Assembly (NCBI GenBank): GCA_018267585.1
Contig: JAFDYE010000375.1
Location: 1-59,235 of the forward strand
Source of the DNA: Bacteroidota bacterium
GTDB taxonomy: Bacteria; Bacteroidota; Bacteroidia; Chitinophagales; Chitinophagaceae
Length of the DNA stretch: 59,235 bases
Reading direction: 5' to 3'
The notes beneath the pieces are model-generated. The model had not been told where the DNA came from, searched no databases, and worked only from the letters and a program-made list of their open reading frames with translations. The position numbers and the translations under genes were made by a program. Positions 5,403 through 27,790 of this stretch are shown here, piece after piece. How positions within the stretch are numbered: the first letter of the stretch is position 1; each line of letters opens with the position of its first letter.

Positions 5403-5403
5403 A

Positions 5404-6984: not shown

Positions 6985-7010
6985 AGAAATATTTTTAGCA
7001 AAGAGGAGAA

Positions 7011-10000: not shown

Positions 10001-10118
10001 AGAAAGGAGCTTCACCCCCGGTATGGGTAATGATGCCCTTGACGGGTTTTGGCTGTGCGAACCCGGTCAGCGCCATAAAGAAAACAGGAAAGCAGAAAAG
10101 CAGTAGTCTTTTTTTCAT
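7011..10118 (-). CDS. SusC/RagA-family TonB-dependent outer-membrane transporter
   Basis: A 1035-residue transporter. ATG at 10118 gives a clean signal peptide (MKKRLLLFCF..., ending GFAQ); an upstream in-frame start at 10157 would add 13 unlikely residues. A carboxypeptidase-regulatory-like domain (about 22-95) is followed by a TonB-box-like segment LDNVVVIGYQ. The plug domain holds LQGKVPGLQVV, NPLVIIDGVEV and ASAAAIYGARGGQGVILVSTKRG. A long beta-barrel follows, ending in an aromatic/leucine-rich strand (FLVGVNLNL). It imports oligosaccharides together with the adjacent SusD. There is no STN domain, so it is not expected to signal through FecR; control by the divergent AraC regulator is more likely. 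Confidence 0.96.
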   Translation of the reverse strand: MKKRLLLFCFPVFFMALTGFAQPKPVKGIITHTGGEAPFSGVSVTIKGSSKGTVTDNEGRFSINASSDAVLVLSYIGYATKEVPVKGQSFITASMETSGKELDNVVVIGYQTTSRKSISTSVASVSAKDVNSYVTGNVANALQGKVPGLQVVSGGGLPGAQPKILIHGLSSINYNNNPLVIIDGVEVGFNSLNLLNPSDIESIDVLEDASAAAIYGARGGQGVILVSTKRGKGTASINVSAATGWNYLPGVNLAGAPEYARTMNQIAQASSQPAPFANPDGLPTYNYWDNTFDVGRTQNYMVSATGGRNGLSLYGSLGYYREDSYNASAKGGNWQKYTARFNADMTVNNAVKFGVALAPRYETWLNSPNNIYAAYSMDPTVAPFKTSDSVYRSIPNGFMDMTAFNPYYSLPNRSSFNSVTNPAFNYVTNFNKNDFFGTQYSAYLQLTPIRNLVIKSTVEGFVDVSQYNNYSPKYYLAPNANNKQSTLYSTTGVNTRWKIINTANYKFSIGNHNVDLLAGESTDKYIVKATNATRQGIALDDPSFQYISAATTVIDGSGSYQPGAAPWGNMVSYFGSLRYNYKEKYFLSGTMRADASSLVNPLYRWGYFPTASGAWIVSEEGFFKKISPETISYLKLRASWGKSGGNLPPSSGAYLTTLGSTTYPNAAGGYTVGYAAGTIANPEIKWEIQKDYTFGLDANLLHDRLNVTAERFVRNPSNLLENITVDYVLGYPQGYYPTQLANVARMTTRGWDFSIGYKDNLTKKLKLGVNLTVSHSRSIVDDLGTADPILGHEANDVISTYRSRLTKGHEPGAWYGFVTEGVFQSDAEAAAYVNKNGTRLQPNAKAGDLKFKNINGDTVLNNNDLTDLGSPWPKYTGNLTITLNYGNFDFRTEFYGSFGAKYFQGYRLNMNPTGHLNFESGLENQFWHGAGTSNKFPVLRYPDQNGNFSKMSDFFLAESNFIRCNLLQVGYTIPHWIKGVKSLRLYASVQNLFTVTKYPGLNPDLPWYSTVGYNGVDNYQAIPSRTFLVGVNLNL

Positions 10119-10154
10119 ATCTGGCAGTTTTCGTTGATCGATAATTCGAAGGCA

Positions 10155-10183
10155 CAATTTTAGACCGATATCCGCAGTAACAA
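10155..10183 (-). promoter_or_regulatory. Candidate promoter for the first SusC operon
   Basis: On the minus strand a TAAAATTG element (10155-10162) resembles the Bacteroidota -7 box TANNTTTG. A TTG (10181-10183) lies 18 nt upstream at the -33 position. It sits 37 nt before the SusC start, in the 183-bp space shared with the divergent AraC gene. This is a motif match only. Confidence 0.35.
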
Positions 10184-10255
10184 GATGGAGTTTCTTATTA
10201 AAAACCTAGACAATCTTATTATCGGTCGGATTCAACAGGCAATAGCAATAACTTT

Positions 10256-10263
10256 TACTTTTG
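10256..10263 (+). promoter_or_regulatory. Candidate -7 element for the AraC-type regulator
   Basis: TACTTTTG at 10256-10263 matches TANNTTTG exactly and lies 38 nt before the preferred ATG at 10302. No clear TTTG element was found about 18 nt upstream, so the promoter may be weak or activator-dependent. Confidence 0.35.
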
Positions 10264-10301
10264 CCACAGGTTGCCTCCGGGACAACACAAACAGCTTGCA
10301 T

Positions 10302-11201
10302 ATGAAACGATCCGGCGTACTCAGAAAAAAAGAAGGCTTTGCAGGACAGCGTTCGATCGTCCTGCCCCGCAAGATACTGGCCGACTCCTGCGTCGACAAT
10401 TCCATGATCAAGTGGCTATACATCACTGATATCGGCTATTATCCGAAAGCACAGTACCATTTCAGACAGCGCGTGCACGGCAGCGACCAGCATATTCTGA
10501 TCTACTGCGTGGAAGGAAAAGGAAGCGCGCAGGTCATGAAAAAAAAATACGAGATCGGTCCCGGATCCTTCGTCCTTATACCGGCCGGGGAGCAGCACAA
10601 TTATTCGGCAAGCGAGGATGATAGCTGGACTATTTACTGGGTTCACTTCAAAGGCGCGGGTTCGGAGAGACTGATAAAAACCCTGCTGGAAAAAATAAAT
10701 GCCCACCGCGGTGCCGTCGATTTTCAGGCCAGGCGGCTCGACCTGTTCGAAGAAATGTATACCTGCCTTGAAAGAGGATACGGCACCGACAACCTCTGCT
10801 ATGCCAACGTCTGTCTCTATCACTATATTTCTTCCTTCATCTACCCCGACAAGTTCGGTCTCACAAAGAACAAGCCGGAGGACAACGCGGTCGAGCTGTC
10901 GATCGACTATATGCAGCAGAACCTTTCCCGCCCGCTGACGCTCGGGGACATAGCCGCATCGGTCAATTTCTCGGCCTCCCATTATTCCGCCTTTTTCCGT
11001 AAAAAGACCGGATACGCCCCGATAGAGTATTTCAACCACCTGAAGGTCCAGAAGGCCTGTCAGTACCTCTTATACACGGAGCTTCGGATAAAGGAGATCT
11101 CCGACAAATTGGGGATAGAGGACCCCTACTATTTTTCGAGGATGTTCCGCAAATTGATGGGACTCTCGCCGAATGAATATCGAAGTAAGAAACATTCCTA
11201 G
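10302..11201 (+). CDS. AraC-family transcriptional regulator with cupin sensor domain
   Basis: A 299-residue regulator. ATG at 10302 is preferred over in-frame 10185, because the upstream extension overlaps the putative promoter and does not look like protein. The N-terminal cupin (about 40-115) includes GPGSFVLIPAGEQHNY, the sugar-sensing jelly roll of the AraC family. Residues about 195-297 form the double helix-turn-helix, with PLTLGDIAASVNFSASHYSAFFRK and the signature GIEDPYYFSRMFRKLMGLSP. It is divergent from the first SusC operon, so it very probably controls that operon in response to a released sugar. The ligand is unknown. Confidence 0.9.
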   Translation: MKRSGVLRKKEGFAGQRSIVLPRKILADSCVDNSMIKWLYITDIGYYPKAQYHFRQRVHGSDQHILIYCVEGKGSAQVMKKKYEIGPGSFVLIPAGEQHNYSASEDDSWTIYWVHFKGAGSERLIKTLLEKINAHRGAVDFQARRLDLFEEMYTCLERGYGTDNLCYANVCLYHYISSFIYPDKFGLTKNKPEDNAVELSIDYMQQNLSRPLTLGDIAASVNFSASHYSAFFRKKTGYAPIEYFNHLKVQKACQYLLYTELRIKEISDKLGIEDPYYFSRMFRKLMGLSPNEYRSKKHS

Positions 11202-13443: not shown

Positions 13444-14400
13444 TCAAACCTCTTCATCCCCCGGCGCCCGGTTATGCCACCAGCTCGCCAGCGACGACCC
13501 CGTCGTATTCATCATCGGACCAAAAACTGCCGGCGCCAGGCCGACCGTCGCCAGCTTACCCATCCCCAGCGCCAGACCCGAAGCCATGCCTGCGTTCTGC
13601 ATCCCCACCTCCAGGGCGATCGTACGGCAGTCCTTCTCCGGAAAGCCGAACAGCCTTCCCGCCCAATAACCAAGGAAATAGCCGGCCGAATTGTGCAGCA
13701 AAGTAGCCACCACCAGCAGCGCGCCAACCTTGAGCAGGCTGTCCCTGCCCGCCGCCGTGATCACCACGATGATAATGGCGATCCCCGCCATAGAGACGAT
13801 CGGCATCGCCTTATCCAGGCCTCTAAAACGGCCCCTGACAAGATAGTGGAAAAGCAGTCCCGCCACCACCGGGAAAATGACCATCTTCATGATATCCCAT
13901 ACCATCGCCTGCCAGTGCACCTCGATAAAGCTGCCGGCCAGGAGCCGCATGAGCAGCGGAGTAAGAAAAGGCGCCAGCAGGGTCGACACGGTCGTGACGC
14001 TGACAGACAGGGCCAGGTTCGCCCTGGCAAGAAAGGACATGACATTCGAAGCAAGCCCGCTCGGACAGCAGCCAACCAGGATGATGCCGGCAGCGATCTC
14101 CGGCGGGAACCCAAACAGCCGCGCCAGCCCAAAGCCGACCAGCGGCATGATGCTGTAGTGACAGACGACGCCGATGATAACGCCCCTCGGCATCCGCAGC
14201 ACCTGCGCAAAATCCTTCAGGCTTAGCTCGGTCCCCATCCCGAACATGATGACCTGCAGCAGCGGCACGATCAGACCCGACAGCTTGAACCCGCCCACGC
14301 TCACAAAATACTGCGGATAGCACATCGCCACGCTCACCACCGCAAGTATGATCACGGTAAAGCCATATCTCTTAAAGAGCACCCTCTTACGCATAGGCAA
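13444..14400 (-). CDS. Bile acid:sodium symporter (BASS/SBF) family transporter
   Basis: A 318-residue inner-membrane protein with about nine or ten hydrophobic segments. It carries VPLLQVIMFGMGTELSLKDF near the N-terminus and GCCPSGLASNVMSFLARAN in the middle, the conserved BASS sodium-binding crossover region. EVGMQNAGMASGLA further on is the second conserved signature. BASS members import bile acids, pantothenate or pyruvate with sodium. It is the last gene of the second SusC operon, 6 nt after the dehydratase, so a sugar-acid breakdown product such as pyruvate or a keto acid is a plausible substrate. That substrate is inference. Confidence 0.88.
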   Translation of the reverse strand: MPMRKRVLFKRYGFTVIILAVVSVAMCYPQYFVSVGGFKLSGLIVPLLQVIMFGMGTELSLKDFAQVLRMPRGVIIGVVCHYSIMPLVGFGLARLFGFPPEIAAGIILVGCCPSGLASNVMSFLARANLALSVSVTTVSTLLAPFLTPLLMRLLAGSFIEVHWQAMVWDIMKMVIFPVVAGLLFHYLVRGRFRGLDKAMPIVSMAGIAIIIVVITAAGRDSLLKVGALLVVATLLHNSAGYFLGYWAGRLFGFPEKDCRTIALEVGMQNAGMASGLALGMGKLATVGLAPAVFGPMMNTTGSSLASWWHNRAPGDEEV

Positions 14401-14406
14401 ACAATT

Positions 14407-15861
14407 TTAGCTCCACAACCGGTCCCAGGACCTCACATTGTCCCATTCCGGCGTTGGTCCAAAATAGTTCTTATTTTCCGGATCGAGATGCTTTTTCAGC
14501 ATTTCGTCGTTCAATTCAACTCCCAGGCCCGGCGAATCCGGCACACTGGCGAATCCCTTCTCGAACAGCGGCTTCCCGTCCTTCGTCCGGACGAAATCGG
14601 TCCAGTACGGCAGGTCCAGCGAATGGTGCTCCAGCGCCACGAAGTTCTGCGTCGCTGCAGCGCAATGCACATTGGCCATAAAGCTGACGGGCAGACCCGC
14701 AAAATGCATGGCCATCGCCACCCCCTTCTCCTCGGCGTAGTCCCCGATCTTCTTGGTCTCCAGCAGACCACCGGAAGTAGCCAGATCGGGATGGACAAGG
14801 TCTGTCGCGTGATTGTCGATGAGCTTGATGAATTCCTCTTTCAGATAGATATCCTCTCCCGTATTGGTGGGCGTCTCGATACTGCGGGTGATCTCCTTCC
14901 ACTCGTCCGTATACTGCCAGGGAATAAGGTCTTCCAGCCAGGCCAGCCGGTATTTCTCCAGCCCCCGCCCGAGCCGGATGGCATTGTTCATATCGAAATG
15001 ACCATAGTGGTCAGAAGCCAGCGGCACATCATAGCCGATGACATCCCTCACCTGCGCCACGTACTTGGCCATTTCCTCGATTCCCTTATCTGTCACCTGT
15101 ATCTGGGTGAAGGGATGCTTCGTCGCTCCATAGGTCATCGGCGCCATATTCCACTGCCGCTGTACGTCCCAGTAGTTGGAGTTGACGATGGTACCCGGGA
15201 TCTTTCTGATCATTTCGATACCCAGGTCCATCTTCAGGAAGGTAAAGCCCTTCCCTTCCAGCCGGTCCTTCAGCTTGGCCGTAAATACCTGCGGGTCTTC
15301 TTCCTCCGGCGTGTCGGCATAGAGCCGGACCTTGTCCCGGTATTTGCCTCCCAGCAGCTGATAGCAGGGGACATTATACGCCTTGCCCGCCAGGTCCCAT
15401 AGCGCCATCTCGACGGCGCACACACCCCCGCCCTGGCGGCCGTGAAAACCGAACTGCTTTATTCGCTTGAATAACATTTCCACGCTGCACGGATTCATCC
15501 CGACGATACGGCTTTTCAGGAACAGCGCATAGCGCCAGTCCGCGCCGTCACGAACTTCCCCGAGACCATAGATCCCCTGGTTGGTATCGATACGGATGAT
15601 GGTACAGCGACCCGTGGTGTTGATAGCGGTAGCATAGCGCATGTCGGTGATCCTGAGGTCGGACGGACTCGAATAGCGGTTGACATTCGAGGCGCTGTGT
15701 GCAAAGGTATCTTCGATGCCCGAAAAGAGAAGCCCGCTCAGCGAAAGGCCGCCAAGCGCCGATCTTTTGATAAAGCTGCGGCGGCCGCCCGTCCCGGCCT
15801 TTTCTTCAGGGACAGGCTCTTCCAGCCCGAATTTCTCCAGGAATTTTTTTGATGGATTCAT
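14407..15861 (-). CDS. Enolase-superfamily (mandelate racemase/muconate lactonizing) sugar-acid dehydratase with Tat signal
   Basis: A 484-residue protein of the MR/MLE group. Residues 27-32 (RRSFIK) match the twin-arginine motif, followed by a hydrophobic stretch to about 50, so folded export to the periplasm is predicted. In the barrel, LKMD (Lys210, Asp212) fits the first catalytic pair. Metal ligands are Asp284 (ASDHYGHFD), Glu310 (WLEDLIPW) and Glu336 (NTGEDIY). His386 in MHFAGLP is the candidate second base. This layout resembles galactonate/mannonate-type dehydratases that form 2-keto-3-deoxy sugar acids. The exact substrate is not readable. It lies 33 nt after the RraA-like gene in the same operon. 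Confidence 0.88.
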   Translation of the reverse strand: MNPSKKFLEKFGLEEPVPEEKAGTGGRRSFIKRSALGGLSLSGLLFSGIEDTFAHSASNVNRYSSPSDLRITDMRYATAINTTGRCTIIRIDTNQGIYGLGEVRDGADWRYALFLKSRIVGMNPCSVEMLFKRIKQFGFHGRQGGGVCAVEMALWDLAGKAYNVPCYQLLGGKYRDKVRLYADTPEEEDPQVFTAKLKDRLEGKGFTFLKMDLGIEMIRKIPGTIVNSNYWDVQRQWNMAPMTYGATKHPFTQIQVTDKGIEEMAKYVAQVRDVIGYDVPLASDHYGHFDMNNAIRLGRGLEKYRLAWLEDLIPWQYTDEWKEITRSIETPTNTGEDIYLKEEFIKLIDNHATDLVHPDLATSGGLLETKKIGDYAEEKGVAMAMHFAGLPVSFMANVHCAAATQNFVALEHHSLDLPYWTDFVRTKDGKPLFEKGFASVPDSPGLGVELNDEMLKKHLDPENKNYFGPTPEWDNVRSWDRLWS

Positions 15862-15894
15862 ATGATTACTGTTTTTTAAATAGAATAAGCGGTC

Positions 15895-16827
15895 TTACCA
15901 GGTCCTGCTCTTCATATAGTCATCCAGCTCCTTCCTGCTCATCGGCAGCTTCTCCGGATGCTCATCCAGCCAGTGCAAAAAATCTTTTTTTATCGCATCA
16001 CTCCACTGAGAGTCGATCTCTCCCGCCAGGTATTTCTTCTCACGGAGACGCTGGTGTCCAAATTCATCCCGCAACTCGATAAACTCGGAAGTAATGACCA
16101 CCGTATCCAGCAGCTGCGCCGGTATAAAGACAACGCCATACCGGTTGGCGAGCACCGCATCCCCCGGCATCACGATCGCCCTTCCGATACGGATAGGCGT
16201 ATTGATAGCCGTCAACATCATCTGCTGGATGTAGGAAGGATCCACGCCTTTTACCCAGCCGTTAAAGCCATTGATCTCGCTGAGCCCTGCCTCGTCGCGG
16301 ACGCTGCCGTAAAAGATGACCCCGCGGTGCGACCGGGAATAGATCGCGTTGCCTAAGTTATCCCCGATCAGCGTCCCGTCGGCCATCTTCAGATAGCTGT
16401 CGGCGACATAGACGTCCCCTTCCGTGAGCACGTCGATGGGCCAGGAATTGGTGCCGCCCTGCTGGTTGCGCCCCTCGGCCTTACCCTGCTCCTTGACAAC
16501 GGCGGCAAGATCGGGACGCAGGGGCATGTATTGCGCCGTGACGACGCGCCCGGTCATGCTCCCGCTGTCGGGATGAATGACGTGCCAGTCGCCCTCATAC
16601 TGGTTCTGGTAGCCATGGTTACGCAGCACGCCCCAGACGTCTTCCAGCGAGAGTTTCTTCAGACGCTCGAGCAGGTTATCCGAAACCTTCGGACGTCCGT
16701 CCGGCGATCGTTCCCCCTTCCAGGCCGGGGTCAGCGCTCTTAGCGTTTCCGGCGAAGAGCCCACCCGCTGGGCCGAAGCATAAAGACTGGCAACAAGCAG
16801 TAGAGGCAATAACAGTTGTTGGATCAT
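15895..16827 (-). CDS. RraA-family protein (class II pyruvate aldolase-like) with signal peptide
   Basis: A 310-residue protein that begins with a signal peptide (about 1-20, ending ASAQ), which is unusual because characterised RraA-fold proteins are cytoplasmic. The family core includes LIGDNLGNAIYSRSHRG and FYGSVRDEAGL. Arg177-Asp178 match the Arg-Asp pair used by HMG/CHA aldolases for pyruvate and metal binding. PGDAVLANRYGVVFIP is the second conserved stretch. The fold includes both aldolases that release pyruvate and the RNase E regulator RraA. The periplasmic signal and the neighbouring dehydratase and kinase favour an enzyme. It lies 11 nt after the FGGY kinase. Confidence 0.85.
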   Translation of the reverse strand: MIQQLLLPLLLVASLYASAQRVGSSPETLRALTPAWKGERSPDGRPKVSDNLLERLKKLSLEDVWGVLRNHGYQNQYEGDWHVIHPDSGSMTGRVVTAQYMPLRPDLAAVVKEQGKAEGRNQQGGTNSWPIDVLTEGDVYVADSYLKMADGTLIGDNLGNAIYSRSHRGVIFYGSVRDEAGLSEINGFNGWVKGVDPSYIQQMMLTAINTPIRIGRAIVMPGDAVLANRYGVVFIPAQLLDTVVITSEFIELRDEFGHQRLREKKYLAGEIDSQWSDAIKKDFLHWLDEHPEKLPMSRKELDDYMKSRTW

Positions 16828-16838
16828 GATTTCCGTAT

Positions 16839-18293
16839 TTAAAACTCTTTTTTAACGCTCTCATATAACCGCCCAAACTTTTCCACTCTCTCCCTGTACA
16901 CCGCATGATTCCCGGCATCCGGGTGATAGACGGCCAGCGCCTCCCGCCGGATCGATGGCACCAGCCCCATCGCCTCCATCCCGATGACCACGGCGCCCAG
17001 CGCCGCGATCTCCTCTTCACCAAAGGTCAGCACCTTCACGTTGAATACGTCCGCCAGCATCTGGACCCACAGCGGACTCCGCGCAAAGCCTCCGGTGGCG
17101 TGCAGCTCGGTGACCGTGTTCTGCTCCGCCAGGATCCGGCCGATACTATATACGGCATAGACGACACCCTCCATCGTCGCCCGGACCAGGTGCGCCTTCG
17201 AATGACGGATATCCAGTCCGAAAAAAAGTCCCCTGGCCCTGGAGTTCCAGACCGGCGCTCTCTCGCCTAAAATATACGGAATAAACACCAGATCGTCGGA
17301 ACCCGGCGCAACCGTTGCCGCCTGCTGGAAAAGCCGGCTGAAGTTCTCCTCTGTCTGCAGCAGGGTTTCTTTTAGCCACTGGAGCACTACGGCCCCATTA
17401 TTGGTGGCTCCCCCGCTGATATAGTCGTTGTCCTTTACATGATAACGGAAGGTCCGCATCTCCTTATCGACGCCGGTCCCCGAAAGGATCATCCTGGCTG
17501 CGCCGCTGGTCCCGATCGTGACCGCCATGACCTGCCCCCCGCAGGCGCCCGTAGCCAAATTGGCGGCAGCCCCGTCGCTGCAGCCGACGATGATAGGGAT
17601 CCCGGCGGGAAGAGACAGGGAGTGAACCCCATCCCCTCCCCCGGGTTCATACCTGATAGTATGCCGGGGTGAGACCACCCGGGCCAGTTTTGAACGGTCA
17701 ACTGAAATATGTCTCAGGATGTCTTCATCCCAATCCAGTGTCTTGCTGTTGAGCAGGCCCGTAGCCGACGCGATGCTGCTGTCGACGGGTCGCTGGCCAA
17801 AAAGCCGGCCGAATACGAATTCCTTTATGCCGATAAAGGCCGCGGCGCGGGCGAACAGCCCCGGCTCCTCCCTGCGCAGCCAGATCAGCTTGCACAACGG
17901 GGTCATCGCATGGATGGGCACGCCCGTCGCCGCATAAAAACACTGACCGATCCCGTTGCCGGACAGCTCTTCGGCAATAGAAGCCGCCCGGTTGTCCGCG
18001 TAGATCATACAGGGAGTCAACGGACAAAGTCCCTCGTCGACCGCCAACAGGCTGTGCATCGCCGAGCTGAAAGCCACCATCTCCGGCCGCGCGGGCGAAA
18101 GATCGCCCACGACCTCGTTGATGCTCCGGCATACCGCCCGGAGTATCTGCTCCGGGTCCTGCTCGCTCCGGTCCGGATGGGTATGTAACATCGGGTACGA
18201 TACCGACCGCTTGAGAATGGGCACCCCTTCCCTGCTGAATGCAACCGCCTTCGCAGACGTAGTGCCAATATCGACTCCCATGTAATAGGTCAT
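16839..18293 (-). CDS. FGGY-family carbohydrate kinase (gluconokinase-like)
   Basis: A 484-residue cytoplasmic kinase. The first domain starts GVDIGTTSAKAVAFS, the phosphate-binding loop of the actin-like fold. HPDRSEQDPEQIL and SAMHSLLAVD are seen in gluconate kinases. The second domain has MAVTIGTSGAARM, FIPYILGERAPVWN and LHATGGFARSPLW, the FGGY nucleotide-binding signatures. It phosphorylates a sugar or sugar acid with ATP; gluconate is the nearest known type. It starts 7 nt after the second SusD, placing it in the operon. A second kinase with the same architecture lies at 24045-25568, so the locus has two. Confidence 0.9.
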   Translation of the reverse strand: MTYYMGVDIGTTSAKAVAFSREGVPILKRSVSYPMLHTHPDRSEQDPEQILRAVCRSINEVVGDLSPARPEMVAFSSAMHSLLAVDEGLCPLTPCMIYADNRAASIAEELSGNGIGQCFYAATGVPIHAMTPLCKLIWLRREEPGLFARAAAFIGIKEFVFGRLFGQRPVDSSIASATGLLNSKTLDWDEDILRHISVDRSKLARVVSPRHTIRYEPGGGDGVHSLSLPAGIPIIVGCSDGAAANLATGACGGQVMAVTIGTSGAARMILSGTGVDKEMRTFRYHVKDNDYISGGATNNGAVVLQWLKETLLQTEENFSRLFQQAATVAPGSDDLVFIPYILGERAPVWNSRARGLFFGLDIRHSKAHLVRATMEGVVYAVYSIGRILAEQNTVTELHATGGFARSPLWVQMLADVFNVKVLTFGEEEIAALGAVVIGMEAMGLVPSIRREALAVYHPDAGNHAVYRERVEKFGRLYESVKKEF

Positions 18294-18300
18294 TCGTCGG

Positions 18301-19881
18301 TTATTTATCCCAAAAAACGTGTATTGCCATATTGTCCCCGCCCATATGGCTGACCGCGGCGTTGTAGTTGTCCGTATTCACCGAAGCTTCCCGCAGCGGA
18401 TACTGCAGCCTGTGGACAAAAGCTCCCTTAACCGCCGGATCGGCGCCGGGATAGGGATTGGGCGTCAGCGACGGATAGCCGCTACGCCTGAAATTGGCCC
18501 AGGCCTCCGTCCCATTGAGGAAGGAGGCGATCCAGTACTGCGTATTGATCTGCTGCAGGGCATTCCCCGGGTCGAAGGGATTGGCGGCCATATACGCATC
18601 CTGCGCCGCCACGGGAATAGTAGCCGACGCATCGTATTTCGCCATCTGGTCCATATGCGCCCGGACACCGGCGGCATAAAGCGTGGCGGGACTGGCGGCT
18701 ATCCACCCCCTCTGCGCGGCCTCCGCCAGCAACAGCTGCGTCTGCGCATAAGTGACAAAGAACTCCGGGATATCTATGCGCGCCACCGTACGGCGGTTCA
18801 GCTGCGAATACTTCCAACCGGTGACCGCCTTCCCCGGGAAATTGGGCGCGGTGTTGATGGTGGCTTCGTTGTATCCCAGCGGCATCCCGATCTGATCGGC
18901 GACGGCGGTATCCTCGGAGCCAGTGCCGTTGGGACCCAGCGCGCCACCCGGATTGTTATACTTTACGGCGATAACGCCCAGGCGGGGATCGTGCGTTCGC
19001 TGCAGCGAGTCCACGAACGGCTTGGCGAGGTAGACGTTGGCCTTCTCCGTCCCTTGCAGCCAACCACCCGTAGGACTGTTAAAAGTGCTGCTGAAGAAGA
19101 CGACGGCGTTGTCGGCATTCGACTGCATAACGCCGGCTGCATAGGCTGCCGCAACGATCTGCTGGGCCTTCGTAGCATCTGATCTGCTATAGCGCATTCC
19201 TATTCGCAACAGCAGCGAATTACCCAGCTTCTTCCACTGGGCGATATTTCCCTTGTAGATGACGTCGTTTGCCTCGGTGGCCTTCCCCGCGTCCAGTGCA
19301 CCTACGGCCTGGGTCAGCTCGCCCGTGATATCCGTATAAATATCCTGCTGATTATCGTATTTGGGCAGCCCCAGCTTCTGAAGATAGCCCTGTCCAGCCT
19401 GGGTGTAGGGAACGTCGCCATAAGTGTCTACCAGGATCATGAACACATAGGCTCTCATGATGCGCGCCATATTGTAGAGATTGCTCCTCGCCGCATTCGC
19501 CTTTGTCTGGTTGATCACGTCGGCCAGCAGGGCCACAGGTCCGTTGACTCCGGTGGTGCTGCCGGTAACTGTTGCGCCATTCCCTGTTCCCTGGAAGAGC
19601 AGGTCGAATGTTGTGCTGGCATTGTTGTCATACTCGACATTGTGATTGCCCCCTTCGGCGACTCCGGTGAAAGGATGAATGACCTGCTGCGCAAGCGGCA
19701 GCTGATAGTAGAAGACCGGAATCGCAGCGTTGACCTCGGCCGTCGCAAAAAGATAGGCAGGATCGAGCGAACTGGGCTGCGTCGGGTTGGTGTTCACATC
19801 CACAAAGTTCTTGTCGCAGGCGGATGCGCCCGCCAGCAGCAGCAGCGGCAACAAGTATCGGATCGAAAACATTCGTACCAT
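18301..19881 (-). CDS. SusD-like outer-membrane lipoprotein (SusD/RagB, SusD-like_2 type)
   Basis: A 526-residue lipoprotein with lipobox GASAC (Cys22). The start at 19881 is used, but the in-frame ATG at 19872 would also give a normal signal. Helical segments contain RIMRAYVFMILVDTYGDVPY, the equivalent of the SusD signature in the SusD-like_2 subgroup, and the C-terminal part has PEFFVTYAQTQLLLAEAAQRG. It should bind the ligand at the surface and hand it to the adjacent SusC, whose stop lies 21 nt upstream. Its partner genes suggest a ligand rich in sugar acids, which is inferred. Confidence 0.93.
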   Translation of the reverse strand: MVRMFSIRYLLPLLLLAGASACDKNFVDVNTNPTQPSSLDPAYLFATAEVNAAIPVFYYQLPLAQQVIHPFTGVAEGGNHNVEYDNNASTTFDLLFQGTGNGATVTGSTTGVNGPVALLADVINQTKANAARSNLYNMARIMRAYVFMILVDTYGDVPYTQAGQGYLQKLGLPKYDNQQDIYTDITGELTQAVGALDAGKATEANDVIYKGNIAQWKKLGNSLLLRIGMRYSRSDATKAQQIVAAAYAAGVMQSNADNAVVFFSSTFNSPTGGWLQGTEKANVYLAKPFVDSLQRTHDPRLGVIAVKYNNPGGALGPNGTGSEDTAVADQIGMPLGYNEATINTAPNFPGKAVTGWKYSQLNRRTVARIDIPEFFVTYAQTQLLLAEAAQRGWIAASPATLYAAGVRAHMDQMAKYDASATIPVAAQDAYMAANPFDPGNALQQINTQYWIASFLNGTEAWANFRRSGYPSLTPNPYPGADPAVKGAFVHRLQYPLREASVNTDNYNAAVSHMGGDNMAIHVFWDK

Positions 19882-19902
19882 AATTTATTTTTTAGGCGAT
19901 GT

Positions 19903-22900
19903 TTAAAATTTGAAATTCAGGTTGAGCCCATAGCTGCGGGTAGTCGGCAGCGTGTGCGCCTCGATGCCGGGCACGTTGTCCGAGGCTGAGACCTGCGCTT
20001 CCGGGTCGAGATTATCCACATATTTCTTTATCACCAGCACATTGTAGATATTGCCGCTGACAGTGAGCTGGCGGATAAAGGTCTTTTTGACAAATGGCGA
20101 GAGATCGTAGGCGAGTGACAGCGACCGCCAGCGGATAAAGCTCGCGTCGTATACGAACGGCGTAGCGACAGCCGTCGACCGGTATTGTGTATAGAAGGTC
20201 TCGGCATTCACGCTTGTCGAATTGGCCGATCCGTCCTGGTTGACCGCGCCGAAGACGACGCCGCCTTCCCTGCCGACCAGCGAAGCCTTTGACAGACCCT
20301 CCCGCAGGAAGTTCAGGTTGGAATTCGAGAGCAGCTTTGCCCCCGCCTTGAAGTCGACCTGCGCAAACAGGCGCCAGCGACCCAGCGTAAAGGTATTCTG
20401 CCAGCCACCGGTCCAATTTGGTATCGCGCTGCCGAAGGTCTTAAGACTTCCCTGCAGGAACAGACCACCGCTGGTGATGATATTCCCCTTTGCGTCCCGC
20501 TTGTAGTCATACCCGCGCAGCGACGCCAGCGGCTTTCCGACCTCGTGGGAGACGGTGCCGAAGTATTCCCCCGAGCCCACGTCGAATCGCTGCTGCCCTC
20601 CCGCGAGCGATAAGACCTTGCTTTCATTATAGGCGGCGTTGAAGCCGGTCTCCCAGCTGAAATTTCCCGTCTTTACCGGCGTACCCGTCAGCAGCAGCTC
20701 GAGGCCCCGGTTGCGGAGATGTCCCAGATTCACCTTGGTGCCGCTGTATCCGCTGGCATTGGAGACGCTGACGTTGAGGATCTCGTCATAGGTATTCTTG
20801 TTGTAGACCGCCCCGTCAAAGCTCAGCCGGTTGTTGAATAGCCTGAACTCGAGTCCCAGCTCGGCCTCTTTTACTTTCAGCGGCTTGAGGTCGGGGTTGG
20901 GGCTGACATTGCTGGGTATATTTCCCAGCGCAAAGCTGCCCGTGGGTGTGGTGAACTGATTCGCATTGACAAAATAATACAGGGCGTTCGTATACGGGTC
21001 CGTATCCCCTCCGACCTCGGCATAGGCCGCGCGCAGCTTGCCATAGTTCAGCCACGAAGGCAGGTGGTTCCCCAGCAGCTCGCTCCAGACAAAGCTGAGG
21101 CTCGCTGAAGGATAGAGATAGTTGTTGGACTTGGGGTTCAGTGTGGAGAACCAGTCGTTGCGCGCGGTAAGGTTCAGGAACAGGTAGTTGTTGAACGATA
21201 GTTCGGCCGCGCCGTACAGCGAGTTGACCTCCTTCTTCGAATAGTTATAAAAGGGATTCTTGGTCTGTCCGTTGCCGATCGTATAGAGATCGCGCACATA
21301 GAAATTCGTAACCGAGGTTCCCAGGTTAGAATAGACCTGCTCCATCTGGTTGCCGCCCAGGGTCACGTCGATGCCAAACCTGCCGAAATTATGCTTGCCG
21401 CCGACGAGAAAGTCCATATTCCGCTCGCGGAAGGTCGTCTCGTCCTGATAATAATAGCCGTTGAATCCGCTGGCCGCTGCGCCGATGCTTCGCGTTCCCG
21501 TCGGCCGGTCGTAGTCGTAGGGCCGGGTATAATAGTCCTGACCAAAACGTCCCTGGACATAGAGCCAGTCGGTCAGCTGATAGCGCAACGCCGCGTTGCC
21601 GATGATGCGGTCGCGGCGGACGTGCTCAAAACGCTGCAGCGTCACCCAGTACGGGTTATTCCGGTTCGTAAACCGGGCCAGCGGCTGCTCGTTGCCATTG
21701 GCATCTTTATAGGTCGCCTTCAGCCAGGCCACGTCGATGCTGTTGGCAAGCGTGTAGATCGTCGTATTGGCGTCCATGTCCTGGATGCCGATCTGCGGCG
21801 GATTGTGGTTGTATTCATTCGAATAGTTCGCGTTCAGCTGGAGGCTGAACCTTGGCGTGAACTTATAGTTCAAACCCAGGTTAACGATCTTCTTGTGATA
21901 GTCGGAATTGGGCATGATGGCATTGGCGTCCGTATTGGAGAAGGACAGCCGGAAATAGCCCTTGTCGCTGCCCCCGGAAACTGCGACAGTATTGGTATAA
22001 TTGGCGCCGGTCCGGTAAAAATCCTTTATCCGGTTCTTATAGGCGACATAGGGCTTCGTCGTGCCATCGAACTGCGGAGTAGGCTTTCCGTCGAACTTCT
22101 CGCCGAAAGAAAAGACGCCGGAACTCTGTGCGTCGCTGACGCTCTGCGGCCGGATATTGTTCTCACCCTGACCATAGTCATACTGAAAATCCGTATAGTC
22201 CAGTGCCTGGTCGGCCTGGAAATGCGAGCTGACCTCGACACCCAGGGCCGTGCTGCGTGACCCCGTACGGGTGGTGATGATGATCGCGCCGTCCTTTGCC
22301 CGGAAACCATAAAGGGCGGCAGCTGCCGCGCCCTTCAGTACGGTCATCGACTCGATGTCGTCCTGGTTGATGCTCTGCAGACCATCGCCCTGGTCGGAGG
22401 AACCGCCGGTCGGATTACCCGTGCCATTGCCGCCGGAGAAGCCCGCAGAAATGCTGGTGTTGTTGATCGGTATGCCGTTGACGACGATAAGCGGAGAATT
22501 GTCGCCTTTGAAGGAAGACTGTCCGCGGATTCGGATCTTGGTAGAGCCACCCGGCCCGCCCGCAGGCGGAGAGACATTCAGACCCGCTACCTTTCCTTCG
22601 AGGCTGTTGCCGAAGTTCGTGGTGCGGTTGCTCGTCAGCTGTTCGGTGTTGACGCTGGTCGCAGCATAGCCAAGCCGCCGGGCCTCGCGCCGGATACCCA
22701 GGGCTGTGACCAGCACTTCGTTGAGGTTGCGCGAGTCGGTGACGAGGGCGACATCGAAGGACGCCCTGTCATTCACAGCGATCTCCTGAAGGGCATAGCC
22801 CACCGAGCTGATGACCAGCGTGGAACCCGTCGCCGCATTGATGTGAAAATGGCCGAGCGAGTCGGTGGAAACCGCGGCTCTCCCTCCCTTCACCTGTACA

Positions 22901-23019
22901 GTAGCAGCAAAAATAGGCTTGCCGGCCGCGTCGGTCACGGTGCCGGTCCTGGTTTGCGCCATGCTGTTGAAGGTAATAAAAAGGAGGGCAGGCCAGAAAG
23001 CCAGTGCAATTCTTTTCAT
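19903..23019 (-). CDS. SusC/RagA-family TonB-dependent transporter
   Basis: A 1038-residue outer-membrane transporter with a signal peptide ending NSMAQ (about residue 22). A carboxypeptidase-regulatory-like domain (about 23-95) contains GKPIFAATVQVKGGRAAVSTD. The TonB-box region is LNEVLVTALG. The plug holds LEGKVAGLNVS, SPLIVVNGIPI and AAAALYGFRAKDGAIIITT. The barrel ends in YGLNLNFKF, a typical outer-membrane C-terminus. There is no STN domain. It heads the six-gene operon running down to the symporter at 13444, and is divergent from the AraC gene at 23170. Confidence 0.96.
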   Translation of the reverse strand: MKRIALAFWPALLFITFNSMAQTRTGTVTDAAGKPIFAATVQVKGGRAAVSTDSLGHFHINAATGSTLVISSVGYALQEIAVNDRASFDVALVTDSRNLNEVLVTALGIRREARRLGYAATSVNTEQLTSNRTTNFGNSLEGKVAGLNVSPPAGGPGGSTKIRIRGQSSFKGDNSPLIVVNGIPINNTSISAGFSGGNGTGNPTGGSSDQGDGLQSINQDDIESMTVLKGAAAAALYGFRAKDGAIIITTRTGSRSTALGVEVSSHFQADQALDYTDFQYDYGQGENNIRPQSVSDAQSSGVFSFGEKFDGKPTPQFDGTTKPYVAYKNRIKDFYRTGANYTNTVAVSGGSDKGYFRLSFSNTDANAIMPNSDYHKKIVNLGLNYKFTPRFSLQLNANYSNEYNHNPPQIGIQDMDANTTIYTLANSIDVAWLKATYKDANGNEQPLARFTNRNNPYWVTLQRFEHVRRDRIIGNAALRYQLTDWLYVQGRFGQDYYTRPYDYDRPTGTRSIGAAASGFNGYYYQDETTFRERNMDFLVGGKHNFGRFGIDVTLGGNQMEQVYSNLGTSVTNFYVRDLYTIGNGQTKNPFYNYSKKEVNSLYGAAELSFNNYLFLNLTARNDWFSTLNPKSNNYLYPSASLSFVWSELLGNHLPSWLNYGKLRAAYAEVGGDTDPYTNALYYFVNANQFTTPTGSFALGNIPSNVSPNPDLKPLKVKEAELGLEFRLFNNRLSFDGAVYNKNTYDEILNVSVSNASGYSGTKVNLGHLRNRGLELLLTGTPVKTGNFSWETGFNAAYNESKVLSLAGGQQRFDVGSGEYFGTVSHEVGKPLASLRGYDYKRDAKGNIITSGGLFLQGSLKTFGSAIPNWTGGWQNTFTLGRWRLFAQVDFKAGAKLLSNSNLNFLREGLSKASLVGREGGVVFGAVNQDGSANSTSVNAETFYTQYRSTAVATPFVYDASFIRWRSLSLAYDLSPFVKKTFIRQLTVSGNIYNVLVIKKYVDNLDPEAQVSASDNVPGIEAHTLPTTRSYGLNLNFKF

Positions 23020-23169
23020 AATGGCAATTGTTTGGAGTTAGCAAATCGTCAGATTACACAAAGAAGAAAAATTCCAAACAAAAAAACTTCCAATAAAATC
23101 CACCGGTGAATTTTATACATAAATAATAGTCTAACTTACAGTTGTCGCCAAAACAAAAGACCGGATTGC

Positions 23170-24048
23170 TTGAACCCATTTCTCCTACAAAAAGGATTCT
23201 CAAAAGAGCTGGACCTTTTTCCGCACATCCTCGAGTTCGGAGTGAAAAAGATCCAGACCATCCGTCTTACTTCCTTCCCGGTCGAAAAAAGCAATTCCTT
23301 CAGCATCTATTATATATGGGATGGCCGCTATGACTGGCTCATCGACGACCGCTCATACATCCTCTATCCCGCCGACCTCGCCCTGGTGCTGCCCGGACAG
23401 CCATTTGGCAGCCCCCGCGGTACGCTCGACATCGGCAGCTATGGCTGGATATCCCTCGACATCGGTACCTCGGACAGCAGTCTGGGACCATTCAGCGGCC
23501 TCTCGCCCACCGAAAGCCGCTCCATACGGAAGATACTCCTGCTGAACAATGTCCCCGTCGCTACGTCAATGAAGGAGACGGGCAAGCTGTTTCAGCAGCT
23601 GGCGCAAGAGCTGCACCTGCAGGAGATAGGCTACCAGACGAGGACCAATCAGCTGATAGACGCGCTGCTCATCCTTACGGCCCGGCAGCTTATCCAGCAA
23701 AGCCATTCGCAGCGGGACTTCTCCGGCTCATTTATGAAGCTCGAGCAGGAGCTGCGAAAGAACCTCTCCCACCAGTGGGCAGTGGAAGAGATGGCGGCCC
23801 TCGTTGGGCTGGGCACAACCGCATTTACCGAAAAAGTAAAAACATATACCGGCTTTTCACCGCTGAACTATCTGATCAATATCCGCATCTCGGAAGCCAT
23901 CAAGCTCCTCAAACAGACGGACACCAACCTGACCGATATAGCGCTGGATACCGGCTTCTATTCGTCACAACATTTCTCCACCACCTTTAAGAAGCTCACC
24001 GGCTATACGCCGAGCCAGTTTCGAAAGGACAATACCGACATACCATGA
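23170..24048 (+). CDS. AraC-family transcriptional regulator (TTG start)
   Basis: A 292-residue regulator. There is no ATG or GTG upstream in this frame before the TGA at 23107-23109. Translation most likely begins at TTG 23170, in the context ATTGCTTGAACC. The N-terminal cupin (about 15-100) has YILYPADLALVLPGQPFGSP. The C-terminal helix-turn-helix (about 195-290) has WAVEEMAALVGLGTTAFTEK and the signature ALDTGFYSSQHFSTTFKKLTGYTPSQF. It is divergent from the second SusC operon and probably controls it. Its TGA overlaps the start of the kinase gene (ATGA), so regulator and kinase are co-translated. Confidence 0.88.
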   Translation: MNPFLLQKGFSKELDLFPHILEFGVKKIQTIRLTSFPVEKSNSFSIYYIWDGRYDWLIDDRSYILYPADLALVLPGQPFGSPRGTLDIGSYGWISLDIGTSDSSLGPFSGLSPTESRSIRKILLLNNVPVATSMKETGKLFQQLAQELHLQEIGYQTRTNQLIDALLILTARQLIQQSHSQRDFSGSFMKLEQELRKNLSHQWAVEEMAALVGLGTTAFTEKVKTYTGFSPLNYLINIRISEAIKLLKQTDTNLTDIALDTGFYSSQHFSTTFKKLTGYTPSQFRKDNTDIP

Positions 24049-25568
24049 ACAGGCAGGACTGCATACTGACCATCGACCTCGGTACGGGCGCCGTACGGAT
24101 CTTCGCCTTTGACCTGCAAGGCATTTTCATCGGCTCCATGAAAGGCTCCTACCCTACCTTTCACCGGGAGCCGGATCAGAGCGAACAGGACCCCGAACAG
24201 ATCTTTATCACGGTGCTGTATGTCCTGAAGAATCTGCTCAACGAAAGGATCCATCCGTCCGGCTACCGGGTAAGCGCCATCTGTTTCAGCGCCGCCATGC
24301 ACAGCGTGCTTCCGGTCGACAAGAAAGGCAACCCCCTCGGCAATGCCATCACCTGGTCGGACAACCGCGGCAAAATGGAGGCCCGGCAGCTCAGAACCTC
24401 ACCCGAGGGCAAGACCATCTATGACGCGACGGGCACTCCCATCCATCCTATGTCCCCCCTGATAAAGATCACCTGGATGAAGAACGAGGACAAACACCGG
24501 TTCCACCTGACCGCACGCTTCCTTTCCCTGAAAAGCTATATCATCCAGCAGCTGACGGGGGAGACGATCATCGACTACAGCCTCGCCTCCGCCACGGGCC
24601 TGTTCAATATCCATTCCTTCCGGTGGGAGGACGCGGCGCTCGACTATGCGGGCATACTCGCCAGCCAGCTGCCCGAACTGGTACCGGTGTTCTATTCCTC
24701 GCCGCGGCTGCGGCCGGAATACCAGGCTTCACTGGGACTGGATGCCGCCACCCGGATCATCGCGGGCGCCAGCGACGGCTGTCTCGCTACCCTGGGAGCC
24801 GGCGTATGGGGCGAAGGGAAAGCGACGATCACAGTGGAGCAGAGCGGGGCCGTGCGCGTGGTTGGCAAAGAAGTCCTGATCGACGAGAAGCAACGGCTTT
24901 TCAACTATGTCCTCACACGCGACTACTACGTCTCGGGCGGCCCTACCAACAACGGCGGCGTGATCTTCGAATGGTTCACCCGCGAGTTCGGTTCGTTCCG
25001 GAAAGCATTCGACCTCGAAGAGGCAATGGAAGGACTGATACAGGAAGCCTCGAAGATACCCGCCGGCAGCGAAGGACTCCTGTTCCTCCCCTATTTGCTC
25101 GGCGAAAGAGCCCCTATCTGGAATGCCAATGCCAGAGGCGTGTATTTTGGACTGAATATGCAGCACCGCCAGCAACACTTTGTCCGCGCCACCATCGAAG
25201 GCATCCTGTTCGAGATATACAGCATTGGTAAAACGCTCGAGGAACACCGACCCATCCACACGCTGTCCATCAACGGAAGCTTCGCTGCCTATCCCTTCTG
25301 GGCGCAGCTGATCGCCGACATGTTCAACAAGCCGGTGCACGTAAAGAACAATTCGGATAGCATCGGGCTCGGCGCCTTCCTCGTCGCCGCCACCGAAATG
25401 GGCATGTATCAAAGTCTCGAAGAGGCGACCCGGGGCATCGACTTGCCGGGAATGTTCCGGCCGGACAGGAATAACCACGAAGTGTATATGCGGCTGTTCC
25501 CCATCTTCGAGCGCCTGAGCAGCAAATTAGCGGACGACTTCGAAGAGATCGCCGGCTTACAGAGCTAG
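24045..25568 (+). CDS. FGGY-family kinase (gluconokinase-like), second copy
   Basis: A 507-residue cytoplasmic kinase with the phosphate loop TIDLGTGAVRIFAFDLQG, REPDQSEQDPEQIF and SAAMHSVLPVDK. The second domain shows GGPTNNGGVIFEW, FLPYLLGERAPIWN and SINGSFAAYPFW. It has the same layout as the kinase at 16839-18293, but the two are clearly diverged. Its start overlaps the AraC stop, giving a regulator-kinase bicistron. Gluconate-type phosphorylation is the family default. Phosphorylating the inducer or a locus product is a possible role. The 23 bases after it lead to a convergent cupin gene. Confidence 0.9.
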   Translation: MNRQDCILTIDLGTGAVRIFAFDLQGIFIGSMKGSYPTFHREPDQSEQDPEQIFITVLYVLKNLLNERIHPSGYRVSAICFSAAMHSVLPVDKKGNPLGNAITWSDNRGKMEARQLRTSPEGKTIYDATGTPIHPMSPLIKITWMKNEDKHRFHLTARFLSLKSYIIQQLTGETIIDYSLASATGLFNIHSFRWEDAALDYAGILASQLPELVPVFYSSPRLRPEYQASLGLDAATRIIAGASDGCLATLGAGVWGEGKATITVEQSGAVRVVGKEVLIDEKQRLFNYVLTRDYYVSGGPTNNGGVIFEWFTREFGSFRKAFDLEEAMEGLIQEASKIPAGSEGLLFLPYLLGERAPIWNANARGVYFGLNMQHRQQHFVRATIEGILFEIYSIGKTLEEHRPIHTLSINGSFAAYPFWAQLIADMFNKPVHVKNNSDSIGLGAFLVAATEMGMYQSLEEATRGIDLPGMFRPDRNNHEVYMRLFPIFERLSSKLADDFEEIAGLQS

Positions 25569-26458: not shown

Positions 26459-27790
26459 ATGAACAGAAAAGAGTTTCTTCGCAATAGCGGCCTCGCCGCC
26501 CTGGCACTTGCCACCGCCCCCTCCACCCGGTTATCAGCCCGCAGCCGGCAGGAAAAGGTCCGGCTTGCCGTCATCGGGACCGGCCTTCGCGGACAGAGCC
26601 ACCTGAGCCTCCTGCTTAAAAGGGACGACGTCAGCCTCCTGGCCATCTGCGACATCGACGATGGGATGCTCGACAGGACAAGAAAGCTGATCGAAAAAAG
26701 CGGCCAGAAAATGCCTAAGATCTATACCGGCAATCCCTACGCCTGGAAGGACCTGCTCCACAACGAGCAGCTCGACGGGGTCATCATCGCGACCCCCTGG
26801 GAATGGCACAAACCAATGATCATCGGCGCACTGGAAGCAGGAATAAAATATGTCGGCACGGAAGTCGTCCTGGGCATCACACTGGAAGACCACTGGGATG
26901 TCGTAAGAACGGCAGAGCAAAAAAATGCCCACGTCATGATGCTGGAGAACGTCTGCTACCGCCGCGACGTCATGGCCGTGCTGAATATGGTGCAGCAGGG
27001 ACTGTTCGGAGAGCTCGTACACCTGCAGGGCGGGTACCAGCACAATTTGCGGGACGTGAAATTCAGCGGCAATTGCGAGTTTGGAGAGAAGGCCTTCTCC
27101 GAGGCTCGCTGGCGTACGGAACACTCCATCCATCGCAACGGCGACCTTTATCCCACGCACGGGGTCGGCCCGCTGGCCCACTATATCAATATTAACCGCG
27201 GCAACCGGTTCGTCAACCTCTGCTCCTTCTCATCCAAGGCCCGGGGCCTGCACGACTACGTGGTCAAAAAATGCGGACCGGACAACCCGAGCGCCAGGGT
27301 CCAGTTCAAACTAGGCGACGTCGTCACCACATCCATCAACTGCGCGAACGGCGAGACCATCCTGCTGCAGCACGACACCAGCCTTCCCCGCCCCTACTCG
27401 CTGGGCTTCCGTGTCCAGGGGACAGGGGGGCTCTGGATGGACGTCGCAAAAGGCATTCACGTCGCCGGACAGTCGAAGGAAGACGCCTGGGACGATGCGA
27501 AGACCTGGCTTGACAAATACGACCACCCGCTTTGGAAACGCTGGAGCTCCTCCGCAGAAGGCGCCGGCCACGGGGGAATGGACTTCTTCGTGCTGCACGC
27601 ATTCGTAGAATCCACCAAAAGGAGCGTCCCGACACCCATGGACGTATACGACGCCGCGGCCTACAGCGCCATAACACCCCTCAGCGAACAGTCCATCGAA
27701 CTGGGCAACCAGACGGTTGAGTTCCCTGACTTCACCGCCGGGCAGTGGATGTATCGCAAGCCGTCCTTTGGCCTGTCGGACGAATACTAG
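26459..27790 (+). CDS. Gfo/Idh/MocA-type oxidoreductase, GH109-like (alpha-N-acetylgalactosaminidase family)
   Basis: A 443-residue protein with an export-type N-terminus (MNRKEFLRNSGLAALALA, no twin arginine). The Rossmann NAD-binding motif GTGLRGQSHL is at about 40-49. The motifs EVVLGITLEDHWD, ENVCYRRD and YPTHGVGPLAHYININRG are typical of GH109, a glycosidase family that uses bound NAD in an oxidation-elimination mechanism. Alpha-N-acetylgalactosamine is the known substrate of characterised members, so the call is at family level. The gene converges with the third SusD and their stop codons overlap (CTAG). It may supply the glycan-cleaving step for that operon, but it is on the opposite strand. 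Confidence 0.85.
   Translation: MNRKEFLRNSGLAALALATAPSTRLSARSRQEKVRLAVIGTGLRGQSHLSLLLKRDDVSLLAICDIDDGMLDRTRKLIEKSGQKMPKIYTGNPYAWKDLLHNEQLDGVIIATPWEWHKPMIIGALEAGIKYVGTEVVLGITLEDHWDVVRTAEQKNAHVMMLENVCYRRDVMAVLNMVQQGLFGELVHLQGGYQHNLRDVKFSGNCEFGEKAFSEARWRTEHSIHRNGDLYPTHGVGPLAHYININRGNRFVNLCSFSSKARGLHDYVVKKCGPDNPSARVQFKLGDVVTTSINCANGETILLQHDTSLPRPYSLGFRVQGTGGLWMDVAKGIHVAGQSKEDAWDDAKTWLDKYDHPLWKRWSSSAEGAGHGGMDFFVLHAFVESTKRSVPTPMDVYDAAAYSAITPLSEQSIELGNQTVEFPDFTAGQWMYRKPSFGLSDEY

Follow-up and report, generated by a model that had tools for sequence, protein, structure and literature searches.

This report concerns a probable sugar-acid operon and two divergent, putatively regulatory genes, found at positions 13444 to 25568 of contig JAFDYE010000375.1 from a Bacteroidota bacterium of the Chitinophagaceae (assembly GCA_018267585.1); the whole stretch of DNA that was analysed, 59,235 nucleotides (nt), is referred to as the window. 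Six genes lie on the minus strand in the order SusC-SusD-KIN1-RraA-ENO1-BASS, with intergenic gaps of 21, 7, 11, 33 and 6 nt. An earlier note on this DNA had described such a six-gene operon with gaps of 6–33 nt, and the coordinates and Pfam matches bear this out. Its inventory was correct for the six operon genes but overlooked the plus-strand AraC and KIN2 genes within the range that it covered, and it gave the FGGY kinase no role. The features of the region are:

13444..14400, minus strand: BASS sodium symporter of the PanS/ASBT_NM type, a likely organic-acid importer with cargo proposed below (PF01758; ASBT_NM structure 3zuy, 1.9e-66)
14407..15861, minus strand: ENO1, mandelate-racemase-type enolase-superfamily protein with predicted export by twin-arginine translocation (Tat), putative aldonate dehydratase (PF13378, PF02746)
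15895..16827, minus strand: RraA/HMG-aldolase-fold protein with predicted export, putative 2-keto-3-deoxy acid lyase (PF03737, 5.4e-16)
16839..18293, minus strand: KIN1, FGGY kinase with DIGTTSAK, SDG and GTSG motifs intact (TIGR01314, 411.9 bits, cutoff 648.55; gluconate kinase 3gbt, 4.8e-89)
18301..19881, minus strand: SusD-like surface lipoprotein (PF12771, 4e-76; PF12741, 1e-53)
19903..23019, minus strand: SusC/RagA-type TonB-dependent outer-membrane channel (Pfam plug and barrel; TIGR04056, 587.7 bits, cutoff 368.25)
23020..23169, no strand: divergent SusC/AraC intergenic region of 150 nt, by its position the likely control region
23170..24048, plus strand: AraC-family regulator, divergent from SusC (HTH_18, 9e-22)
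24045..25568, plus strand: KIN2, FGGY-fold protein with the GTS motif replaced, putative sugar-acid sensor (4-nt overlap with AraC)

All family assignments within the operon passed the Pfam gathering scores, and the TonB receptor of SusC type adjoins the SusD lipoprotein, as expected of a SusC/D locus.

Conservation of the RraA-ENO unit

Two samples of genomes were examined. The family set consisted of 147 genomes from the window's family, 35 of which held an RraA homologue at 1e-10, giving 59 RraA places (including one short fragment); 50 regions of the family were also examined. The named loci were the best 80 of at least 564 RraA relatives confirmed among at least 592 candidate stretches in an RraA-alignment scan of 84,980 species genomes. 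Taxa were assigned by record titles, and all 80 loci were titled Bacteroidota (Dyadobacter, Algoriphagus, Spirosoma, Cyclobacterium, Pontibacter, Mucilaginibacter, Mariniphaga and Tannerellaceae among them). Because the 80 loci are the best matches to the RraA subtype of the window, shares among them are biased to that subtype; and because the family regions overlap with the named loci (e.g., L033/L114, L045/L149 and L043/L153), the two sets do not provide independent counts.

In the family set, ENO1 was within 2 kb of RraA in 20 of 23 places, compared with 2/58 (3/58 within 10 kb) for FGGY kinases other than KIN2 and 0/12 within 10 kb for the more distant BASS genes; the proximity of RraA and ENO1 is therefore beyond chance. 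Not counted here were an additional ENO1 fragment, three ENO2-like places and, for the distant BASS genes, their second halves. Close BASS genes were within 2 kb of RraA in 28 of 37 places (29 of 37 within 10 kb), and KIN2 was within 10 kb in 19 of 24. RraA was present in every one of the 23 genomes with ENO1 (Fisher value 1.9e-18, which, like any Fisher value here, ignores the relatedness of the genomes), in 30/33 genomes with close BASS and in 19/20 with KIN2.

The named loci (n = 80) contained ENO1 in 74, SusC and SusD in 40 each, the second subtype ENO2 in 22, KIN2 in 11 and KIN1 in 2. ENO was the next same-strand gene after RraA for 87 of 97 RraA copies, at a median gap of 54 nt. The subtypes of RraA (R1, R2) and ENO (E1, E2) paired like with like: 84 R1-E1 pairs and 34 R2-E2 pairs were counted, with no mixed pair among the total of 118 (R1 then E1 68 times and R2 then E2 19 times in the named loci, 16 and 15 times in the family regions). 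The RraA copies left unpaired (10/97 named, 22/53 family) lay against the end of a contig, were followed by a different gene, or were of a third RraA subtype that has no ENO partner. Algoriphagus and Spirosoma-type loci carried both pairs in series, RraA2-ENO2-RraA1-ENO1-BASS. The strict pairing and this serial arrangement thus argue for dedicated two-enzyme units that would work in sequence.

The remainder of the operon varied. SusC, SusD, KIN1, RraA and ENO1 occurred together in two of the named loci: L082, from the metagenome-assembled genome SZAS-47, with an RraA 85% identical to that of the window and the arrangement KIN2-AraC followed divergently by SusC-SusD-KIN1-RraA-ENO1-BASS; and L156, of the same order with a major facilitator superfamily (MFS) carrier replacing BASS. 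Genome G077 (L038/L171) also has the order SusC-SusD-KIN1-RraA-ENO1, where the BASS match covers query residues 171–315 only; this second-half-only match (L171:5977-6512, contig C143) stands behind an intact five-gene order and is probably a decayed copy. In 34 of the 80 named loci a same-strand BASS gene came after ENO1 at no more than 1.5 kb, and 7 others had BASS at another position; in 5, its place was taken by an MFS protein of the D-galactonate-transporter family. The exact six-gene order, with one intact relative among the 80, was rejected as a conserved unit. Thus the check proposed in the earlier note, a search for the six-gene order in other genomes, gave a divided answer: the RraA-dehydratase order is widely conserved and the exact order is rare. 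What stays constant is the RraA-ENO core, which SusCD often accompanies; KIN1 is optional.

Export signals, active sites and neighbouring enzymes

Judged by their N-terminal motifs, RraA and ENO of the window and of its relatives alike appear to be exported, which agrees with the signal peptide and Tat signal assigned to them earlier. By eye, the N-terminus of the window RraA resembles a Sec signal peptide, as do the RraA starts of relatives, and ENO1 begins with RRSFIKR and a hydrophobic stretch. An RRx[FLM] motif was found within the first 75 residues of ENO in 36/37 and 95/99 copies, compared with 0/64 for kinase and AraC controls; of the five exceptions, L047 carries it at a later position, two read RRDAM, and L158 and L161 are without it. 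A hydrophobic N-terminal stretch was present in 52/53 and 95/97 RraA copies, a weak test because 13/36 kinases and 17/28 AraC proteins also passed it. The signal-peptidase-like pattern small-x-small-Q/N was more selective (17/53 and 50/97 RraA copies, 0/64 controls).

The RraA fold was recognised by PF03737 (5.4e-16) and by structure matches (3noj, 5x15). Residues D156, R177 and D178 of the window protein align to 3noj residues which we take to be the upstream Asp and the catalytic Arg-Asp pair of RraA/HMG aldolase; the Arg-Asp was invariant in 53/53 homologues and Asp156 was kept in 42/53. The fold is that of the 4-hydroxy-4-methyl-2-oxoglutarate/4-carboxy-4-hydroxy-2-oxoadipate (HMG/CHA) aldolases, but the window protein has a predicted export signal, exceeds 3noj by about 60 residues in chain length, is 20–24% identical, is tied to an enolase-superfamily partner, and scores below all HMG-aldolase cutoffs (ligK_PcmE, 52.3 bits versus 304.5). 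We consider it a putative lyase that would release pyruvate from a 2-keto-3-deoxy acid. In ENO1 the metal ligands and His-Asp dyad (D284, E310, E336, D359, H386, by alignment to 2qq6) were kept in 18/18 sequences. Its nearest named families are galactonate, gluconate/galactonate and mannonate dehydratases, all below cutoff (best PRK14017, 181.1 bits versus 311), and these residues and relatives suggest a putative aldonate dehydratase.

Enzymes encoded beside RraA point to 2-keto-3-deoxygluconate (KDG). In the family region L046, RraA is flanked by a UxuA protein with an RR motif and a pyrroloquinoline quinone (PQQ) sugar dehydrogenase; UxuA matches (26–59% identity) were found in 9/80 named loci. 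A PRK09237 amidohydrolase/deacetylase (above cutoff) and a pyridoxal phosphate (PLP)-dependent ammonia lyase of the DgaE family occurred together in 10 of the 50 family regions; a Rid protein was found in 7, an SMP-30 lactonase in 6 and a PQQ sugar dehydrogenase in 5, some of these in other regions. The amidohydrolase and DgaE-type lyase clusters are those of L050, L051, L053, L055, L058–L062 and L066, many with Rid, SMP-30 lactonase, RraA and BASS; in L053, a GH20 hexosaminidase adjoins a GSDH-cytochrome protein. These clusters look like an exported counterpart of the oxidative catabolism of chitin (as N-acetylglucosamine acid). According to the part of PMC9537276 considered here, a comparable cytoplasmic deamination has been proven to yield KDG when chitin is oxidised, with OngB and OngC as the enzymes that give it. 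The Bacteroidota clusters likewise pair a deacetylase, a PLP ammonia lyase and Rid, and would be expected to reach KDG; whereas the ong enzymes, as described in that part, are cytoplasmic and end with a KDG kinase, the Bacteroidota proteins look exported, are of other families (PRK09237, DgaE type) and are followed by RraA and BASS. The simplest reading is that KDG is the common product of the enzymes beside RraA, and RraA would then cleave KDG.

Other gene neighbourhoods were also recorded. In L181 and L182, an exported Tat-type ManD-like dehydratase adjoins a PQQ sugar dehydrogenase without RraA. Genes for ILVD (L-arabinonate-dehydratase-like) and/or fumarylacetoacetate (FAA) hydrolase proteins were near RraA in L036, L063, L071, L073–L075, L077 and L114, and again in L119, L120, L134, L136 and L143–L145, which suggests a cytoplasmic Weimberg-type branch. 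GH31, GH127, GH43 and GH20 hydrolases found in related regions fix no substrate for the window operon. Within the window, a separate SusC/D locus at 1072-10157 encodes GH30 and GH2-like hydrolases and has its own AraC gene (10185-11201), and directly beyond the operon and its divergent genes is a Gfo/Idh/MocA protein with a GH109 C-terminal domain (26459-27790), which was not a conserved neighbour in the regions inspected.

The window BASS is PanS-like (249.9 bits against NF047939, cutoff 400) and is not classed as PanS. By alignment to ASBT_NM, its best solved relative, N269 corresponds to Asn265, L116 to Thr112, M297 to His294 and N298 to Asn295. Asn265, Asn295 and the sodium ligands Ser114 and Asn115 (ASBT_NM numbering) were kept in 25/25 homologues; in contrast to PanS/ASBT_NM, His294 is Met in 25/25, Thr112 is Leu in the window (Leu 18, Met 4, Thr 3 overall), and the gene is in a catabolic operon. 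In ASBT_NM, Asn265 is required for pantoate, and ketopantoate gave no stabilisation or binding, whereas plant BASS proteins that carry keto acids have Ser at 265 and Gln at 112 (PMC10645422, in the part considered). The earlier proposal that BASS imports pyruvate is not supported, the site having Asn269 and Leu116 instead of the Ser and Gln of BASS2; pyruvate is made less likely rather than impossible, because PanS genetics implicate ketopantoate uptake (PMC10645422, same part). A 2-hydroxy acid is the favoured cargo from these residues.

A second BASS in the window's genome, 75% identical to that of the window, forms an in-frame fusion with a PQQ sugar dehydrogenase (1045 aa; L165:951-4088, minus strand, contig C378); of the matches listed from 147 genomes, it alone spans the query. 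The fusion may represent a lost stop codon, or a sequence or assembly error in this 929-contig draft; even if it is an assembly error, the adjacency alone would tie this BASS to periplasmic sugar oxidation. The wider neighbourhoods of orphan BASS genes were of mixed content.

KIN1 retains intact DxGTTxxK and GTS motifs, and its score misses the gluconokinase cutoff. In KIN2, the ATP-site GTS, which we take to be the phosphate-binding motif of FGGY kinases, is replaced by EQS in the window and by E-D/E/Q-S in 29/29 subgroup copies (some genomes counted twice); the other FGGY copies (n = 7) have GTS in 6 and GTC in one. The Asp of the first motif is mostly Glu in the KIN2 subgroup, and one copy is without this motif because it is cut at a contig end. 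The nearest NCBIfam model for KIN2 is gluconokinase, below cutoff. KIN2 overlaps or adjoins AraC, with coupled copies in the window, L033, L036, L042, L043, L045, L064–L080 and others; the AraC group was present in 19 of 50 family regions (the window perhaps included) and 9 of 80 named loci. On the simplest reading KIN2 may be a kinase-derived candidate sensor of a sugar acid, of gluconokinase origin. No description of an AraC-coupled FGGY sensor was found in the open-access literature searched, as far as its text was covered.

Proposed route, alternatives and known systems

We propose that the operon takes up an aldonic acid and splits it in the periplasm by dehydration followed by aldol cleavage, a phosphate-free Entner-Doudoroff-like module, and we place the probability of this at about one half. 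SusC/D would carry the aldonic acid into the periplasm, either free or as the terminal residue of a short glycan. There the Tat-exported ENO1, going by its family and residues, would remove water to give a 2-keto-3-deoxy acid, and the Sec-exported RraA would carry out a metal-assisted retro-aldol cleavage of this 4-hydroxy-2-oxo acid to pyruvate and an aldehyde, e.g., glyceraldehyde; this cleavage would be the best-supported new step of the proposal. The PanS-type BASS would import one periplasmic acid, more probably a 2-hydroxy acid than pyruvate: either aldonate that has not reacted, or the glycerate formed when glyceraldehyde is oxidised. KIN1 would phosphorylate imported aldonate in the cytoplasm, and AraC with the motif-less KIN2 may sense the acid and switch the genes on. 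Periplasmic dehydration and cleavage is favoured because of the conserved pairing, the RraA fold with its Arg-Asp, and the neighbours that are likely to form KDG; the D-galactonate-family MFS proteins that stand in for BASS also speak for the proposal. This part of the route had been put forward in the earlier note and is still the best reading, now with comparative support; pyruvate import, its last step, did not hold.

Several observations weigh against this proposal. We know of no activity for any member of these groups. Among NCBIfam function-specific models, SusC was the sole passer; KIN1, KIN2, ENO1, RraA and BASS were below every curated cutoff, and their names therefore give no substrate. 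The His of the DxHGR motif is absent from ENO1 (Tyr286, flanked by His285 and His288) and kept in ENO2 and in 2qq6, the nearest solved relative. Asp156 of RraA is replaced by Ser or Ala in 11/53 homologues, L046 included, and hydrophobicity, as stated above, is a weak test of RraA export. Three of 23 ENO1 genes had no RraA within 10 kb: that of G035 adjoins BASS near a contig start, that of G122 adjoins a KIN1-like kinase, and that of G098 comes after SusC-SusD. KIN1 is rare, and Dyadobacter loci (e.g., L100, L105) have SusC-SusD-RraA-ENO1 without a BASS or MFS match. An orphan BASS at L169 shares its stretch with a GarL/HpaI-type aldolase (below cutoff), which fits a keto-acid cargo. Finally, a characterised RraA relative, FlDet of Flavobacterium sp. 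UMI-01, is a dehydratase/decarboxylase and not an aldolase (PMC8563752, in the part considered).

Three alternatives were weighed. BASS might import unreacted aldonate for KIN1, with the exported ENO and RraA handling side products or epimers apart from the main route. Gluconokinase as the nearest family of KIN1, the 2-hydroxy-acid Asn kept in BASS, and the fusion of a BASS to a PQQ sugar dehydrogenase, an enzyme expected to yield an aldonate, all fit this; but KIN1 is in 2/80 loci where RraA-ENO is constant (74/80), and the fusion is single among the matches listed and could be a sequence error, so that we regard the idea as unlikely, if the first to be entertained after our own. Ranked after it, and also doubtful, is the same periplasmic unit with RraA acting as a FlDet-like dehydratase/decarboxylase or as a C4-group eliminase, and BASS importing a keto or semialdehyde acid. 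FlDet dehydrates and decarboxylates 2-keto-3-deoxy-D-glucarate toward alpha-ketoglutarate, and its authors note that reports on enzymes converting this compound are lacking (PMC8563752, same part). Weimberg-type genes (ILVD, FAA hydrolase, semialdehyde dehydrogenase) are near some clusters (ILVD 8/80, FAA hydrolase 3/80), but these look cytoplasmic, and the substrate of FlDet is a diacid whereas the UxuA, galactonate/gluconate dehydratase and DgaE-type relatives point to monoacids. The likeness to FlDet extends to the RraA family, the Bacteroidota and a 2-keto-3-deoxy sugar acid substrate; as described in that part of PMC8563752, and the window is set against it by description only, FlDet performs no aldol cleavage and was found in cell extract, beside alginate genes. 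The route as first written, with RraA-made pyruvate as the BASS cargo, is improbable and the least probable of the three: plant BASS2 carries pyruvate and PanS is implicated in ketopantoate uptake, so keto acids are possible cargo in the family (PMC10645422, same part), but Asn269 and Leu116 of the window stand where plant keto-acid carriers have Ser and Gln, and ASBT_NM with Asn bound no ketopantoate.

Beyond the operon, we tentatively extend periplasmic dehydration and cleavage to a complete phosphate-free Entner-Doudoroff-like pathway in Bacteroidota, a wider claim that we hold with less assurance than that for the operon. Exported PQQ- and cytochrome-linked dehydrogenases, a lactonase, aldonate and amino-aldonate dehydratases and deaminases would lead to KDG, which an exported RraA-fold aldolase would convert to pyruvate before the inner membrane is crossed, with a degenerate FGGY kinase as AraC-coupled sensor. 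No description of an exported RraA-enolase pair was found in the open-access literature searched, as far as its text was covered, and the fitness data of PMC9007349, in the part considered, make no mention of an RraA-ENO system. If the proposal is true, many Bacteroidota would cleave sugar acids on the outer side of the inner membrane, importing small acids and aldehydes or leaking them to neighbours. A widespread exported RraA group (at least 564 relatives) would then gain a function, as would a putative sensor derived from a kinase.

Normal teaching places the splitting of sugars into C3 units in the cytoplasm. Like polysaccharide utilisation loci of the SusC/D type, the window has a SusC-SusD pair with a regulator and catabolic genes; unlike them, its operon is without a glycoside hydrolase and has exported acid-processing enzymes instead. 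The non-phosphorylative Entner-Doudoroff and De Ley-Doudoroff pathways proceed in the same way from aldonate to a 2-keto-3-deoxy acid and then to pyruvate and an aldehyde, unphosphorylated before cleavage, and their known versions are cytoplasmic; in the window, by contrast, both enzymes carry predicted export signals, and a protein of RraA fold would stand in for the aldolases of those pathways. The novelty of the proposed route would lie, within non-phosphorylative sugar-acid catabolism, in its compartment, its RraA fold and its sensor.

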